Below are positions 6,351-24,246 of a stretch of DNA of 64,000 nt, piece after piece; positions within the stretch are counted from its first letter, which is position 1, and each line of letters starts with the position of its first letter. A program made the translations under genes and the position numbers. This stretch comes from Acidimicrobiaceae bacterium (lineage in GTDB: Bacteria > Actinomycetota > Acidimicrobiia > Acidimicrobiales > RAAP-2). The stretch spans positions 1 through 64,000 of the forward strand of contig DAIEHI010000128.1 in NCBI GenBank assembly GCA_027355725.1, read 5' to 3'. Below the pieces are notes generated by a model. That model was not told the DNA's origin. It searched no databases and was given only the letters and a program-made list of their open reading frames with translations.

Positions 6351-6575
6351 CTACTTGCGCTTAGCGACGCGCTTTACTGCCTTCTTGGCGGGAGCCTTCT
6401 TGGCTGGAGCCTTCTTCGCTACTGCCTTCTTCTTGGCGGGAGCCTTCTTCGCTGGAGCCTTCTTGGCTACTGCCTTCTTAGCTGGAGCCTTCTTCGCTAC
6501 TGCCTTCTTCTTGGCGGGAGCCTTCTTAGCTGGAGCCTTCTTGGCTACTGCCTTCTTCTTCGCGGCTGGTGCCAC
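6351..6575 (-). CDS. Histone H1-like Lys/Ala/Pro-rich DNA-binding protein
   Basis: A small, extremely basic protein built almost wholly of Lys, Ala, Pro and Val in repeats such as KKAPAKK and KKAVAKK, resembling the C-terminal tails of eukaryotic H1 and of actinobacterial HU (HupB), but with no folded domain. The frame is open to a GTG at 6626 (91 aa), but the GTG at 6575 is preceded by GGAGGG at ideal spacing, giving 74 aa; I prefer that start. It probably binds and compacts DNA or RNA. It converges with cofC over a hairpin and lies beside the DNA-transfer-like pair. A stand-alone tail with no globular HU domain is the odd part. Confidence 0.7.
6365..6565. repeat. Imperfect tandem repeats coding for KKAPAKKA units
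   Basis: The DNA is built from 12-15 base units of the type gagccttcttggctg and ctgccttcttcttgg, arranged in higher-order units of about 50-75 bases. They code for the Lys/Ala/Pro repeats of the overlapping H1-like gene. Copy-number slippage between strains is expected. Confidence 0.85.
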
Positions 6576-6620
6576 TTTCCCTCCTTGGGACTCAACGTTG
6601 CTCAACTTGGGACCTTGGCA

Positions 6621-6633
6621 CACCACCGTGGTG
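6621..6633. promoter_or_regulatory. Short palindrome beside the H1-like gene start
   Basis: CACCAC-C-GTGGTG, a 6-bp dyad around one central base, lies about 45 bases upstream of the preferred start of the H1-like gene and across its alternative start. It is an operator candidate only; short dyads in GC-rich DNA can arise by chance. Confidence 0.25.
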
Positions 6634-6740
6634 AGTCAATCTGGTGCCGCATTGAGAGACGTGAACTCGACCATGTGCGGCCCAGCCTCTCGGCTGTACC
6701 GCGACTGCTCGCAGTGCACGGTCCTTGCGAAAGAGCGTCA

Positions 6741-6770
6741 CTCGATGACATTGCATGCAACAACATCGTG
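6741..6770. promoter_or_regulatory. Composite 30-bp dyad upstream of the coupling-protein gene (operator or origin-like site)
   Basis: A perfect 10-bp palindrome TTGCATGCAA (6751-6760) is flanked at exactly matching distances by CGATG (6743-6747) and CATCG (6764-6768), with a further C/G pair at 6741/6770. All arms share one centre of symmetry. It lies in the 270-base gap between two divergent genes, about 80 bases upstream of the coupling ATPase, ahead of an AT-rich stretch (6797-6850). It could be a regulator-binding site, or a hairpin used by the relaxase encoded nearby. The symmetry is seen; the function is inferred. Confidence 0.45.
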
Positions 6771-6848
6771 AGACTTTTGCCTCCTCCGCAGAAGGACAAT
6801 TAAAAGTTCACTCGCTTTCAATACAAATGTCAAGCATTTCGAAAGTTT

Positions 6849-8189
6849 TTGCAACAGTTGTGTCGAGTGAATGATGACGATGGCATCTACCTTGGTCGAA
6901 CAAATCTTGGTGATGCATCGAGTGGTGCACAACGTTCGACGTTGGTACTCGGTCCAAGCAGAAGTGGCAAGACGTCTTCGCTCATCATTCCGAACTTGTT
7001 GTTGAGCTCGCGAAGTTGCGTCATCACTTCAACAAAGGATGACGTCGTGATGATGATGTCACGTGTCAATCGCGATGGTGCGACCCTGCTGTTTGATCCC
7101 TCGGGCACTGTGCCAACACCACCAGGAGTGCGCAGGATCGGATATTCACCACTGCGTCAAGCGCAAAGCTGGGATGGAGCAATCCTGGCCACACGAAGCC
7201 TGACTGACGTCGCTCGAAGGGGCCACGGCGAACGCAGCGATGATCATTGGACCGAGCGGGCGGGTGCACTCGTCGCTCCACTACTGCACGCATCCGCACT
7301 CAGACACGAGTCGCTCGGGCGACTCGCCTCACGCATTGACGAACGAGAGGGTGCCACGGCGCTCGAAGAATTGGGTGCACGTTACGGCCCGCACCATCAA
7401 GCGGTCAGCTTGCTTCGAGGAGTACTCGGCACCGAGGAACGTGAGCGTTCGGGAATATGGTCTACCGCATCGGGACTGTTCGCAGGAGTGCGCACTGACG
7501 CGGCGCGCGCTTCAGCCAGAGAGGCACCCCTTGACGTCAACGGGTTCCTCGCCGGTGCACATCATCTGCACATCGTGGCACCCAGTCGCCACCAGGCGGT
7601 CACCACTCCATTGGTCGTCGGGCTCATCGAAGAAATCGTGCACGCGACCTACGACCGTCACGCCGAGGGCGCTCGGCTGCTGCTTGCGCTCGACGAACTC
7701 GCGAACGTGGCTCCCCTGCCGCGGCTCGCCAGCATCGTCTCTGAGGGTGGTGGACAAGGTGTTCTCACCCTGGCGTGTCTTCAAGACTTGAGCCAGGCCC
7801 GATCGCGCTGGGGTACGTCCGGCGAGGGATTTCTCTCGCTCTTTCCAACCACCGTGGTCCTGCCTGGGATTGCGGATCGGCCCACCCTTGAACTCCTCCA
7901 GCATCTCGCCGGCCGTGACCTGGTACCGACGCCCACGATTCAACGCGGTCCGCGAGGCAGATCCAACGGCCATTCAACCAGTTGGGTCGAGCGCGACCGG
8001 GCAACACTTGCGAGCGTCGCCCAGGGGAGACCCGGGTTCGCACTCGGCTTGGACGCCTCCAAGCGCATGCGCTGGATTCAGCTCACCGCGGCCCATTCAG
8101 ATGGACGATTCAACCGCTACCTGGATCGCTCCGTGCGTGCGGAGCGATCGGAGCGATCGGAGCGATCAGAGCGGTCCAGAGGAGCGTGA
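6849..8189 (+). CDS. VirD4/TraG/TraD-like DNA-transfer coupling ATPase
   Basis: A 446-aa ATPase resembling type IV coupling proteins, which bring DNA-bound relaxase to a secretion channel. Walker A is GPSRSGKTS (residues 35-43) and Walker B LLLALDELANVAPLP (277-291), followed by the TraG-type segment leading to LACLQDLSQARSRWG. It lacks the N-terminal membrane helices of full VirD4 proteins, so it may be soluble or need a partner. Start is uncertain: TTG at 6849 or GTG at 6867; no ATG is available. The C-terminus is a low-complexity tail of Arg-Ser-Glu repeats whose DNA overlaps the convergent relaxase gene by 73 bp. No other secretion-system gene is in the window. Role in transfer is inferred from family. 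Confidence 0.8.
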   Translation: MQQLCRVNDDDGIYLGRTNLGDASSGAQRSTLVLGPSRSGKTSSLIIPNLLLSSRSCVITSTKDDVVMMMSRVNRDGATLLFDPSGTVPTPPGVRRIGYSPLRQAQSWDGAILATRSLTDVARRGHGERSDDHWTERAGALVAPLLHASALRHESLGRLASRIDEREGATALEELGARYGPHHQAVSLLRGVLGTEERERSGIWSTASGLFAGVRTDAARASAREAPLDVNGFLAGAHHLHIVAPSRHQAVTTPLVVGLIEEIVHATYDRHAEGARLLLALDELANVAPLPRLASIVSEGGGQGVLTLACLQDLSQARSRWGTSGEGFLSLFPTTVVLPGIADRPTLELLQHLAGRDLVPTPTIQRGPRGRSNGHSTSWVERDRATLASVAQGRPGFALGLDASKRMRWIQLTAAHSDGRFNRYLDRSVRAERSERSERSERSRGA

Positions 8190-9217
8190 CTCCATTGACG
8201 GAGTTCGCTTCGTTCGAGCGGCCGTGGGCCGGCCTCTCGCACGTGACGGGTCATTCTCGCGCGCTCAATGCTGAGCGACACCTCTCGAACGCCACGGGAG
8301 TGGCGTAGTTCTGGATAGAGATCGTCAATCGACCCGAGAATGCTGGCAGCATTCTGGCCGAATCGAGCAGCGTTCGCCCACGCGATCACGATGTGGCGCC
8401 GAGTGACTCCCGCGCTGCCCTCGAAAGCGCCAGCGAACGAGTGCTCATCAAAATCAGAAGCTCCGCGTTGCGGCACCACGAGTGCGCCAATCGACTGGAA
8501 GCGGGTTCTATCGCTCTGCCATAGAGCGACGATCTCGTCGCGACCACGCTGCGTCTTGACACCGCGCTCCGCGCTGTGTCCGGCCCACAGCGCTCTGTAC
8601 CCCTCATCGAGACCAGCAACGTGCTCGGTCCCTTCGAAAGAGCGCCACGCTGTCCACGGCGTTCGTTGGGCCAACTCGTGTCGCAGTGTCGAACGATAGA
8701 GCGCGTCTGCGCTACGGGCGTGAGCGAAGAGAGCTCGACTGTCAAGGACGCTTCGCGCATGCTCCGCTCGAGCGCCGACGAGAACATGGTCATGCAGGTG
8801 CGGTTCCGCGTGACGGTTGACGCCGTGGGTGAAACTCACGATCTCACTCCAACGCCCTCTCTCGTCTCGGTCCAACCCACCTCTCCTATCGCGCACGACC
8901 AGTGCACGGTCCTCAAGGTAGTCAACCGACGCCGCTACTGATGCGCGATGCGCATCGATCACCGCTCGAGCATGCTCGGGGGCAATGGCGACGAGGATCG
9001 AGATCGGACGAGGCGCAGCAAACACGAGGTCATAGCCCTTCACCGCCGATCGCTCTGTTCCCGTGAGGACGTGCGCGACATCACTCGCACTCACGCAGTC
9101 TCCACTGCCTCGCAACCACCATCCTGGTCCTCCGTCTCGCACACCGTCGAGTTCGAGAGCCCGATCGCCGGTGAAGTATGAGACATCCCTCGATCGTCGA
9201 GTGAAGATGCGAAGCAT
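8117..9217 (-). CDS. TrwC/MobF-like relaxase domain protein (no helicase domain)
   Basis: A 366-aa relaxase-domain protein. Evidence: an N-terminal Tyr in SYFTGDRALEL (Tyr14, the expected nicking residue), GYDLVFAAPRPISILVA (about 61-77), and the HUH metal site EPHLHDH (His142, His144) with a third His 11 residues earlier (His131), the spacing seen in TrwC-type relaxases. Known MobF relaxases are much longer because a RecD-like helicase follows; here only about 100 residues follow the core and they end in Asp-Arg-Ser repeats. It follows pafBC on the same strand with a 31-base gap that contains an inverted repeat touching the start codon. Nicking and transfer are inferred, not shown. Confidence 0.8.
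   Translation of the reverse strand: MLRIFTRRSRDVSYFTGDRALELDGVRDGGPGWWLRGSGDCVSASDVAHVLTGTERSAVKGYDLVFAAPRPISILVAIAPEHARAVIDAHRASVAASVDYLEDRALVVRDRRGGLDRDERGRWSEIVSFTHGVNRHAEPHLHDHVLVGARAEHARSVLDSRALFAHARSADALYRSTLRHELAQRTPWTAWRSFEGTEHVAGLDEGYRALWAGHSAERGVKTQRGRDEIVALWQSDRTRFQSIGALVVPQRGASDFDEHSFAGAFEGSAGVTRRHIVIAWANAARFGQNAASILGSIDDLYPELRHSRGVREVSLSIERARMTRHVREAGPRPLERSELRQWSHAPLDRSDRSDRSDRSARTERSR
8124..8176. repeat. Tandem 9-bp repeat with an inverted copy in the overlapping gene ends
   Basis: Three exact GGAGCGATC units (8141-8167) and a degenerate fourth (to 8176) lie in the region where coupling-protein and relaxase genes overlap tail-to-tail. The inverse of the unit is present at 8124-8132, making a perfect 9-bp hairpin with an 8-base loop. 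On one strand the repeat codes Arg-Ser-Glu, on the other Asp-Arg-Ser. It may work as a two-way transcription stop or a binding site. Confidence 0.85.
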
Positions 9218-9248: not shown

Positions 9249-11198
9249 TCAGAGTTGAGAAGCGATCCTTCTCGCCAGTTCGTGACCGGCTTTGGCGAAT
9301 TTCTTCGTAGCCACCACCGCCCCTGGACCCGCCAACAACATCAGGTGATCAAGGAATGACTCATCGGTGATTCTGAACTTGACCGCGTGGCAACCGTCCT
9401 CCAGAGCGAGCCACTGCGAGCTCGGAAGAGGCTCAAAGAGGTATCGCTGGCCCGGTTGAACGACCACCACAACCTCATCACCCTCGTCGCCCACCTGCGT
9501 CAGCCAGTTTCGCGCCGTGTCCTCGGGTCTCGGTTCGCTCGACGGGGACTTAGCCAGGATGGCGTTGATTCGATCGATTCGAAATGTGCGCCAGCCTTCT
9601 CGGGTGGTGCAGTACGCGCGAACGTAGGTATGTCCATTCAACACCTTGATCTCGCGAGGTTCAATCGATCGGGTAGTCGACTCCTCTGCGACGCCGGGCG
9701 TGTACTCAATCTTGATGATCTCGCCGTTCGTAACCGCCTCTTTGACTTGGTCCAGGAGCGAATCATTTGAAGACAACTCCACCTGCACAAAAGCACTCGC
9801 GACTCGTTCAATCTTGTTGATGGCGGAATTGATCGCTGGGCTGTCATAGACGAGGGAGGCTTGACGAAGTGCGATGTTCAACGCAAAAAGGTCTCGCCAC
9901 ATGAACGGCGAAGGCTCGTCTCGTTCATTGACGTAATCGGCACGATAGACCGAGTCGTCGGTGTCTTCGTTATCCCAATCGTCACAGTCTTTGATCACGC
10001 GTGCAGGAAATCTGCTCGAGCCGTCACTCGCCTCAGCGAGGGGTTCGAGCGACGACAACCGGTCCATGACGAGACGCACGTGCTCAGGCGACAGAGAGAA
10101 CCTCGCGGCGAGTTCACTGATTCGCAGGCCGTCCTCGGCCATATAGACAGCGTGTAAGAGTTGCAGCGTTTCACCCAGTACGTCGTTTGACGTCGGGCCG
10201 GAAAACTTGAAGTCCTCTGCAATTGGCTTCGCGCTCTTGTTCACCTCTTCGAGCCACTGCTCCAGTTCCTCCTTCAGTGCCTTTGGGCTCTGAAGGCGTA
10301 CGCGCTCCGCTGCCTCGAGAACGAAGCGAAGTGCCGCTCTCGAGTTCTCGAACGAGATCCCAACCTCTATCCGACCTTCCTTCTTCTGCGCCGCGAGCGC
10401 CCGCGGATACTGGCGTACCAGGAGGTCTGCGTAGTTCTGGTTGGTGGTGACGACCACATCAATTGGCGAAGGAGACTTCTGGAATTCCGCCCTCCACGCC
10501 TTAGCGATGCTGAGTGACTCCTCATCAACTTCGTACCCCTCGTTCAAGACGACTGGCATGGACGTGATCCGAGAAATCCGATAGCCCTTGATCTCAGCCG
10601 TGCCCTGTACGCGCGCCACGAGATACGACGCACCGTTGAAGACATCAATGATAAGAGGCTCAACAACGCGTAACTTGTTGGTCGACGACTGATAATGAAA
10701 TGACAATGCCCGGCGCAAGCGCAGCGCTCGCACCACCGGCGTGTAATACGCCGAGAATTCAAGTCCCCCGTCGCTCGCGGGTGCATCGTTAAAGACACTG
10801 AAGACGCCTGAGGACCCCACGCCACAGAACCGAAGCGCCAACTGCACGACCCGCTGCTCATCTTCATCGAAATGAATCACCGGCGCATAGCCGCTTGAGG
10901 GATCGATGCGGTACCCGACGGTGTCATCAGACAGCACCACGGTCTCGATGTCAAACCCGAGTTCTCGAATTCTCGCCTTGTCGCGCTCGAACTTCTGACG
11001 AACTGCCCCTTCGTTACCGTCATACGCGCGAATCTTCTTCGGACCCTTCGACGACACCGGATACTCGTCGATCTTGAGGTCGCGCACGATCTCTTCCTGG
11101 GTCAGGGGCTTCTGGTCAGTCCACGCGCGTTGCAGTAGGAGCACGAGCGCGATCAGGCGCTCACGGCTCTGTTCAACCCCTGCACGAATACTGCTCAT
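9249..11198 (-). CDS. pafBC: Fused PafB-PafC WYL-domain DNA-damage response activator
   Basis: A 649-aa transcription regulator made of two PafB/PafC-type halves. Each half has an N-terminal winged-helix region (about residues 10-60 and 330-395) and a WYL domain (about 150-230, LRLRRALSFHYQSS; about 500-570, ITNGEI-type strand leading to IKIEYTPG and FRIDRI). PafBC is the LexA/RecA-independent activator of DNA-repair genes in actinobacteria and naturally fused forms are known. The frame is open to 11387, but ATG 11198 is preceded by AGGAGA and begins MSSIRAGVEQSRERL, so I start there. It lies between moaC and the relaxase gene on the same strand. Confidence 0.85.
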   Translation of the reverse strand: MSSIRAGVEQSRERLIALVLLLQRAWTDQKPLTQEEIVRDLKIDEYPVSSKGPKKIRAYDGNEGAVRQKFERDKARIRELGFDIETVVLSDDTVGYRIDPSSGYAPVIHFDEDEQRVVQLALRFCGVGSSGVFSVFNDAPASDGGLEFSAYYTPVVRALRLRRALSFHYQSSTNKLRVVEPLIIDVFNGASYLVARVQGTAEIKGYRISRITSMPVVLNEGYEVDEESLSIAKAWRAEFQKSPSPIDVVVTTNQNYADLLVRQYPRALAAQKKEGRIEVGISFENSRAALRFVLEAAERVRLQSPKALKEELEQWLEEVNKSAKPIAEDFKFSGPTSNDVLGETLQLLHAVYMAEDGLRISELAARFSLSPEHVRLVMDRLSSLEPLAEASDGSSRFPARVIKDCDDWDNEDTDDSVYRADYVNERDEPSPFMWRDLFALNIALRQASLVYDSPAINSAINKIERVASAFVQVELSSNDSLLDQVKEAVTNGEIIKIEYTPGVAEESTTRSIEPREIKVLNGHTYVRAYCTTREGWRTFRIDRINAILAKSPSSEPRPEDTARNWLTQVGDEGDEVVVVVQPGQRYLFEPLPSSQWLALEDGCHAVKFRITDESFLDHLMLLAGPGAVVATKKFAKAGHELARRIASQL

Positions 11199-11254
11199 GA
11201 ATCTCCTGTCATCAACCCTCGAGGGTACTGGAGTCGGGTCACCGCAGCGTGCGA

Positions 11255-11773
11255 CTACTTCGTATCGTCGGGTCCGACCCCGGACACCCTCGATGTGTCG
11301 TCTCTTCGCCAGGTGCCCGAACGCCCTCCCGACTTCTCCCACAGGGCGACTTCTTCTATCGTCATAGTGCGATCGGACGACTTGCACATGTCATAAATGG
11401 TCAACGCCGCCACCGTGACGGCCATCATCGCCTCCATTTCAACACCCGTGCGGTCGAACGTGTCCACGCTCGCCTCCACATCGATGTGAGTATCGGCAAT
11501 CGTGAAGTTCACGTAGACGTTGCCCACCAGCACTGGGTGCGACATCGGCAACAGTGTCGAGGCCATCTTCGCAGCCTGAATTCCCGCCACTCTCGCGGTC
11601 GCGAGTACGTCACCCTTGTTCATCGCATTGGCCGCCACACTGGCGGTGGTCTCGGCCAACATATTGACGCGACATCGTGCGAGTGCTCTACGGGCGCTGA
11701 CCTCTGATGGGCCTAGGTCACGCGGGAAAGTCCCGTTTCGACCCGATCTTCGAAGTTGGTGGAAGTCGTCCAC
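11255..11773 (-). CDS. moaC: Cyclic pyranopterin monophosphate synthase MoaC
   Basis: Second step of molybdenum cofactor synthesis, converting the cyclic dihydro-GTP made by MoaA to cPMP. The 172-aa protein has the expected ASVAANAMNKGDVLATARVA block, the active-site segment LLPMSHP (about residue 75-81, usual form LIPLCHP; the conserved His is present while Cys is replaced by Ser), and the C-terminal VEMEAMMAVTVAALTIYDM and KSGGRSG motifs (catalytic Lys). It starts about 80 bases from the divergent fmdB-like gene and precedes pafBC by 56 bases. The tail after KSGGRSG is about 15 residues longer than typical. No other moa gene is near. Confidence 0.93.
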   Translation of the reverse strand: MDDFHQLRRSGRNGTFPRDLGPSEVSARRALARCRVNMLAETTASVAANAMNKGDVLATARVAGIQAAKMASTLLPMSHPVLVGNVYVNFTIADTHIDVEASVDTFDRTGVEMEAMMAVTVAALTIYDMCKSSDRTMTIEEVALWEKSGGRSGTWRRDDTSRVSGVGPDDTK

Positions 11774-23853: not shown

Positions 23854-24246
23854 ATCGTGTTCAACCCTACCGGTCGTGCTCATACTGCAAAAGGGGCTGC
23901 GAGTGCTGACCTGGTCTTTGACCCCACACTTGCCTGCGGCGGTGTCCGTACGCGCCACCGGCAGTAACTAGCTCTCCGGCGACGGACTCGCACACTTCAC
24001 CGGCTCTCAAGACCACCCCTTTGGTGCCCTTAAGGCAGGACTTACTTCTAAACCGCGCCATGCTCAGCCTCAATAAGACGCCTTACGTGGGTCGTTTCGC
24101 CCGCGGCTGGCATCGACTTACAACCACAGAACCACCCGCAGCCCTGATGACATCCTAATAGGCTGGAAACTCGCGTTTTTGTGGTTAATGCGGCGAGTCG
24201 CCAAAGTGCCGGTTTTCGGGGCGAGCCCTGCGCTCGATCCGTCGAG
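23854..24246. other. 393-bp region upstream of secA, nothing recognised
   Basis: Between secA and a glycosyltransferase on the same strand. Short open frames exist on both strands but none has a good start or familiar sequence. I looked for tRNA, SRP RNA, riboswitch and terminator patterns and saw none I can defend. It most likely holds the secA promoter and a long leader. Confidence 0.5.

Follow-up and report, generated by a model that had tools for sequence, protein, structure and literature searches.

A conserved chromosomal relaxase and TraG-type ATPase in Acidimicrobiales: possible half of a domesticated conjugation apparatus

Conjugation machinery normally belongs to plasmids and other mobile elements. 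Chromosomal T4SSs for DNA uptake or release are present in Helicobacter (ComB) and Neisseria (the GGI), but their gene sets differ from that described here, and the GGI is a variable island, whereas the present system is a core feature across families. The closest functional parallel is archaeal Ced/Ted, a case of conjugation genes turned into a cellular means of DNA transfer (PMC9905601); DNA damage induces Ced, which brings chromosomal DNA into the cell (PMC9905601, PMC11868833). Among Patescibacteria it is widespread to have a T4SS on the chromosome that is related to the conjugation machinery of monoderms and has VirB2-like pilins (PMC12102498). Full-text searches of open-access papers gave none that describes the pair of loci considered below.

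The first locus lies in a window of 64,000 nucleotides, the whole stretch of DNA that was analysed, where genes for a TraG/VirD4-type ATPase (6867..8189, + strand, 440 aa) and a TrwC-type relaxase (8117..9217, - strand, 366 aa) converge. The sequence-only reading of this stretch had named a VirD4/TraG-like ATPase and a TrwC/MobF-like relaxase facing each other, and Pfam matches, structure models and coordinates bear this out; both ORFs stand, except that comparison with homologues places the TraG start at the GTG at 6867 and not at the TTG at 6849. A search of both proteins against the two families, which the reading had suggested as a check, gave scores well over the curated cut-offs: ORF 6849-8189 (+) matches PF02534 at 3.7e-17 and TraG-D_C at 1.7e-12, and ORF 8117-9217 (-) matches TrwC PF08751 at 1.6e-24 (87.5 bits, cut-off 25). 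Against the NCBIfam MobF equivalog the relaxase scores 82.4 bits, below the cut-off of 100. The two genes overlap tail to tail by 73 bp (8117..8189), with both strands encoding Arg-Ser-rich ends. Such an overlap is common to 35/35 parsable loci of the genus (37-204 nt, mostly 43-67 nt; the value for locus L036 is a parsing artefact), and Arg-Ser-rich tails end most of their TraG and relaxase proteins.

AlphaFold models of both proteins were built from genus alignments. The ATPase carries a T4SS-DNA_transf domain with Walker A and Walker B, and its model (pLDDT 81) has a TrwB-like fold that aligns with TrwBdeltaN70 (1e9s; Z 26.8, rmsd 3.2, 371 residues). Since the alignment spans TrwB residues 105-498, the cytoplasmic core is kept and only the membrane part is absent. 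In agreement with the earlier claim that the membrane helices are missing, a 19-residue window scan found no hydrophobic window in TraG, and the N-terminal membrane helices of VirD4 were not found. The relaxase model (pLDDT 92) aligns with TrwC (1zm5; Z 21.3, rmsd 3.0, 238 residues). Tyr14, His131 and the His142-x-His144 pair are found as claimed for the catalytic tyrosine and the HUH motif with its third histidine, Asp63 is the expected acid residue, and nicking chemistry is expected from these catalytic residues. The relaxase domain is followed by ~120 mostly helical residues, where the protein ends; a C-terminal RecD-like helicase domain, reported as missing by the reading, was likewise not detected in Pfam/NCBIfam domain searches. 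The pair thus resembles TrwC/TrwB of R388 (a MobF relaxase and its coupling protein) in relaxase fold, catalytic residues and ATPase core, but differs in having no helicase, membrane anchor, plasmid or known oriT. A second MobF relaxase, partial, helicase-bearing and >1000 aa long, is present on contig C27 (L069) of the same assembly.

Conservation of the pair was followed in 60 relatives, 36 of them genomes of the same genus; the genomes surveyed are mostly metagenome assemblies. Among named records, the closest are metagenome bins that go under Acidimicrobiaceae, Acidimicrobiales, Actinomycetes or a like label, and several of them have isolate names of peatland type (such as bog and palsa). 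The relaxase is present in 36/36 other genus genomes at 36-77% identity, always without a helicase, and the gene order rnhB(-) cofC(+) TraG(+) relaxase(-) PafBC(-) is kept in 36/36, within contig reach. The same arrangement is seen in 10 further genus genomes and in 4 genomes from three other genera of the family. Retention of the pair by all 36 other genus genomes rules out chance. TraG identity across the genus loci is 53-86%, and TraG changes more slowly than its neighbours (mean distance 0.30, against 0.50 for rnhB and 0.61 for cofC). Tyr14, His131, His142 and His144 are invariant in 37/37 genus relaxases, Asp63 is present in 35/37, and TraG shows no change in Walker A or Walker B wherever the alignment covers them. 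With the overlapping gene ends excluded, TraG has a dN/dS of 0.05-0.18 in close pairs and the relaxase one of 0.06-0.32; PafBC values >1 or negative stem from broken alignments and were set aside.

The reading had offered two origins for the pair: the remains of an integrative element or a domesticated system. A remnant of an integrative or mobilizable element would suit the homology to conjugation proteins and the lack of any integrase seen. However, a remnant should not be present and syntenic throughout the genus and in other genera, with catalytic residues intact and low dN/dS, and this origin is contradicted by the survey to the point of being extremely improbable. A decaying element is rejected on the same grounds, and the synteny survey that had been put forward to decide between the two origins comes down on the side of domestication, which universal presence, fixed synteny, invariant catalytic residues and purifying selection strongly support. 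The genome comparison shows firmly that the pair is a chromosomal locus of long standing that is actively maintained.

Upstream of the relaxase, on the same strand, is a PafBC-like regulator with two WYL domains (9249..11387, - strand), the sole WYL gene found in this genome. Like members of the PafBC family it has PafB and PafC parts with two WYL stretches, and its best PDB match (6sj9, 1.3e-12) is the naturally fused PafBC of Arthrobacter (PMC6789036). In mycobacteria, ssDNA activates PafBC, which drives the response to DNA damage (PMC11804915). As only 31 bp separate the regulator from the relaxase on the same strand, co-transcription is probable, and the two genes probably form one operon. 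One version of the mycobacterial PafBC promoter motif had no match in the window or at the T4SS operon described below. On the other side of the pair, most genus loci have a histone H1-like gene as a conserved neighbour (6351..6626, - strand; HC2-like, below cut-off) with Lys/Ala/Pro repeats; in other families an HU-type gene with a similar tail stands in its place. A conserved long stem-loop (6660..6721, - strand) precedes the H1-like gene on the strand of that gene; it shows covariation across 33 genomes, with compensatory changes in 13/30 predicted consensus pairs of 6640-6866, and has no Rfam match. As a candidate oriT, the conserved intergenic region 6640-6866 was weighed and rejected: the frequent minus-strand G-U pairs and the 13 compensatory pairs indicate a leader RNA rather than an oriT. 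The stem-loop is probably a structured leader RNA of the H1-like gene, and probably a neighbour of the pair rather than part of it. No oriT was found for the relaxase.

The larger ORFs examined elsewhere in the window are housekeeping genes, for oligopeptide transport, RNase HII, CofC, TldD-type peptidases, Dxs, FtsEX, a release factor, SecA, MetH, lipoate synthesis and SUF, in agreement with the description of the region as otherwise housekeeping and free of integrase and mating-pair genes. No integrase or T4SS gene was seen among these larger ORFs, and no tRNA or attachment site was seen near the pair in the window. A raiA RNA (RF03072, 151 bits) lies beside secA at 23897-24141 (-).

To place the relaxase within the order, 397 genomes were searched with a profile and ~80 loci were then retrieved. 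The relaxase is directly downstream of a PafBC-like gene in about a dozen other families (f31, f45, f39, f43, f33, f38, f28, f48, f9 and others). A convergent TraG gene also occurs in f31, f48 and f60, while f45, f39 and f43 have the PafBC-linked relaxase without it. In a tree of relaxase domains, 22 mobile MobF relaxases without the PafBC neighbourhood form one clade (support 97/99), and the PafBC-linked relaxases lie outside it, largely grouping by family; the labels PafBC-linked and mobile hinge on a distance cut-off, the seven rows labelled mobile outside the clade include contig-edge and gapped cases, and the deep branching is unresolved. The helicase-bearing relaxase on C27 falls in the mobile clade. 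By Pfam, a RecD-like helicase is present in 4/4 mobile-clade relaxases scanned, whereas among those outside the clade AAA_30 is recognisable in 2/15 (f28, 1e-23; f49, 2e-8) and no helicase domain was found in the other 13/15. The missing helicase is therefore a trait of most of this chromosomal relaxase lineage and not of this genome alone. Tyr14, His131, His142 and His144 are present in 62/62 sequences labelled PafBC-linked. The distribution suggests that the relaxase first became chromosomal and then lost its helicase, with the nicking centre retained.

The absence of secretion machinery, as stated by the reading, holds within the window but not for the genome, which carries an unlinked, conserved five-gene T4SS core on contig C202 (19171-23968), with gene ends that overlap or abut. 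The first gene encodes a VirB2-like pilin (94 aa; DUF6112 4e-7, T4SS_pilin 8e-4) and the second a VirB6-like pore (370 aa; SCO6881 family 1e-4, TrbL 7e-3), both assigned from weak domain matches plus gene order. They are followed by a SCO6880-like protein (VirB3/VirB4 N-part, 2e-9), a VirB4-like ATPase (2e-13) and a second VirD4-like ATPase (PF02534 6e-25). None of the VirB6-, SCO6880- and VirB4-like genes reaches the curated cut-off of its matching NCBIfam family. Counterparts in other families have two hydrophobic segments in the VirB2-like protein and about six in the VirB6-like protein. The VirD4-like ATPase of the operon (L070:10788-11966) begins near Walker A, seemingly without an N-terminal membrane segment, and most of its counterparts in other families have hydrophobic stretches upstream. 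The VirB4 N-domain PF03135 had no match in 61 genus genomes; absence of a T4SS, which this blank had suggested, was rejected when a broader search with PF19044 and inspection of contig C202 gave the divergent VirB4-like gene.

The T4SS core has fixed flanks of its own. The VirB6-like gene is present in 34/37 genus genomes, regX/senX is upstream of the operon in 20/20 genus loci retrieved, and a ROK gene is downstream in nearly all genus loci in which the contig continues. Of 20 loci of other genera and families, nearly all have regX-senX upstream and an operon of unchanged order, and most also have serS upstream. Outside the order, the arrangement B2-B6-SCO6880-VirB4-VirD4 recurs in SCO6880/SCO6881-type actinobacterial conjugation modules. 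These have no serS-regX-senX setting, in contrast to the core chromosomal locus with fixed flanks seen here, and the flank-less copies are as expected if the module originated from actinobacterial conjugative elements. The genome thus has chromosomal, vertically inherited homologues of VirB2, VirB4 and VirB6, the set expected of a Ced-like domesticated T4SS. On these comparisons it is a firm result that a T4SS core of equal standing to the pair is present elsewhere in the genome. Because this core is equally conserved in the genome and its relatives, the idea that the pair does a job without a transfer channel becomes doubtful.

The two loci are unlinked, but they co-occur. A VirB6-like gene was found in 45/51 genomes with a PafBC-linked relaxase versus 10/23 with other relaxases (Fisher p=1e-4), and outside the family in 31/37 of the PafBC-linked genomes (p=0.002), both values being uncorrected for relatedness; several of the 6/51 relaxase-locus genomes without a VirB6 match are incomplete drafts. 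Across 14 genomes, TraG, relaxase and PafBC diverge in step with the T4SS proteins (correlation of pairwise protein distances, r 0.93-0.97), and partial r is 0.62-0.86 (permutation p=0.0005 each) after removal of a housekeeping background of four genes, some of them short. For senX alone, the correlation with TraG is r 0.89, and with the most divergent genomes left out the PafBC signal is no stronger than that with senX. Distance correlations and co-occurrence do not fully remove shared ancestry, and the link between the loci is suggestive, short of proof. Related motifs (GCRACMRTTGKG) lie just upstream of TraG (window 6851-6862, +) and just upstream of the T4SS operon (C202:19132-19143, L359). 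The motif has 15 matches in the genome versus 5 for a reversed control, some of them inside or near unrelated genes, and GCGAC..TTG upstream of the operon is kept in most genus loci; a common regulatory site of both loci is possible, and at present only a lead.

The main rival explanation is an intracellular domestication, with chromosomal ssDNA as the substrate of relaxase and ATPase during repair, replication restart or segregation, controlled by PafBC, and with the C202 channel unused. Such a role would agree with the separation of the loci, with the lack of transfer-tied membrane and helicase parts in the pair, with the PafBC-like neighbour and with the three families whose PafBC-linked relaxase has no convergent TraG gene beside it; the equal conservation and co-occurrence of the T4SS core, and a T4SS divergence that tracks TraG and relaxase, argue against it, and it is judged unlikely, though a serious contender. 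The same co-occurrence and correlated divergence, together with two VirD4-like ATPases of DNA-transfer type, make it quite improbable that the T4SS operon serves protein secretion and has no relation to a relaxase locus with its own function, even though some T4SSs export proteins and the chromosomal T4SS of Patescibacteria is mostly without a relaxase (PMC12102498).

On balance we lean towards the pair being half of a conjugation apparatus, long domesticated on the chromosome and split over two unlinked loci, that moves chromosomal ssDNA. Two core loci with fixed synteny are observed, which co-occur, and the first, under purifying selection, has retained its catalytic residues; one domesticated conjugation machine in two parts is the most economical explanation. 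That the loci act together, that DNA is transferred and in a given direction, and that PafBC is in control, we infer. In the first locus, the relaxase would nick DNA through Tyr14 and the His cluster, and the membrane-free ATPase, presumably a hexamer by analogy with TrwB, would receive the relaxase with its ssDNA; the regulator that precedes the relaxase, probably in the same operon, is PafBC-like, and its mycobacterial relative senses ssDNA. In the second, the VirB2-, VirB6-, SCO6880-, VirB4- and second VirD4-like proteins of C202 would form the channel. Acting together, the loci would carry chromosomal ssDNA from cell to cell, or into or out of cells, possibly in response to DNA damage as in archaeal Ced. 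Several results count against this explanation: no oriT was found, the loci are unlinked, the PafBC motif had no match, three of the T4SS genes score under the NCBIfam cut-offs, some genomes with the relaxase locus have no VirB6 match, and a relaxase without a helicase would need another protein to unwind the DNA. An apparatus on the recipient side, in which ATPase and relaxase would handle ssDNA as it enters and so aid competence-like uptake (compare Helicobacter ComB and archaeal Ced import), appears improbable: the VirB2-, VirB4- and VirB6-like set matches that of Ced, which imports DNA (PMC9905601, PMC11868833), but a catalytically conserved relaxase suggests a cut on the donor side, Ced has no known relaxase (PMC9905601), and the sequence does not reveal direction.

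The proposed two-locus machine shares with archaeal Ced/Ted its chromosomal, conjugation-type VirB2, VirB4 and VirB6 homologues. It differs in being bacterial, in two loci and equipped with VirD4-type ATPases, and in keeping a TrwC-type relaxase with intact catalytic residues, of which no archaeal counterpart is known. With the Patescibacteria system it shares a chromosomal T4SS and VirB2-like pilins, but that system is mostly without a relaxase, whereas here a conserved relaxase locus stands alongside. Tentatively, and with somewhat less than even confidence, the two loci may represent an ancestral, order-wide means of chromosomal DNA exchange. This would be a conjugation machine that was domesticated together with a relaxase of its own, under control of the DNA-damage regulator PafBC, and a bacterial counterpart of Ced/Ted that has retained its relaxase. 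A permanent relaxase locus and a permanent channel suggest a DNA-exchange machine owned by the cell in these uncultured actinobacteria. Relaxase and coupling-protein genes in metagenome bins are thus not always markers of mobile elements. A vertically inherited relaxase and T4SS core across many families of one order would amount to cell-owned DNA exchange and, if true, would tie gene exchange to the sensing of DNA damage by PafBC in a way open to testing.
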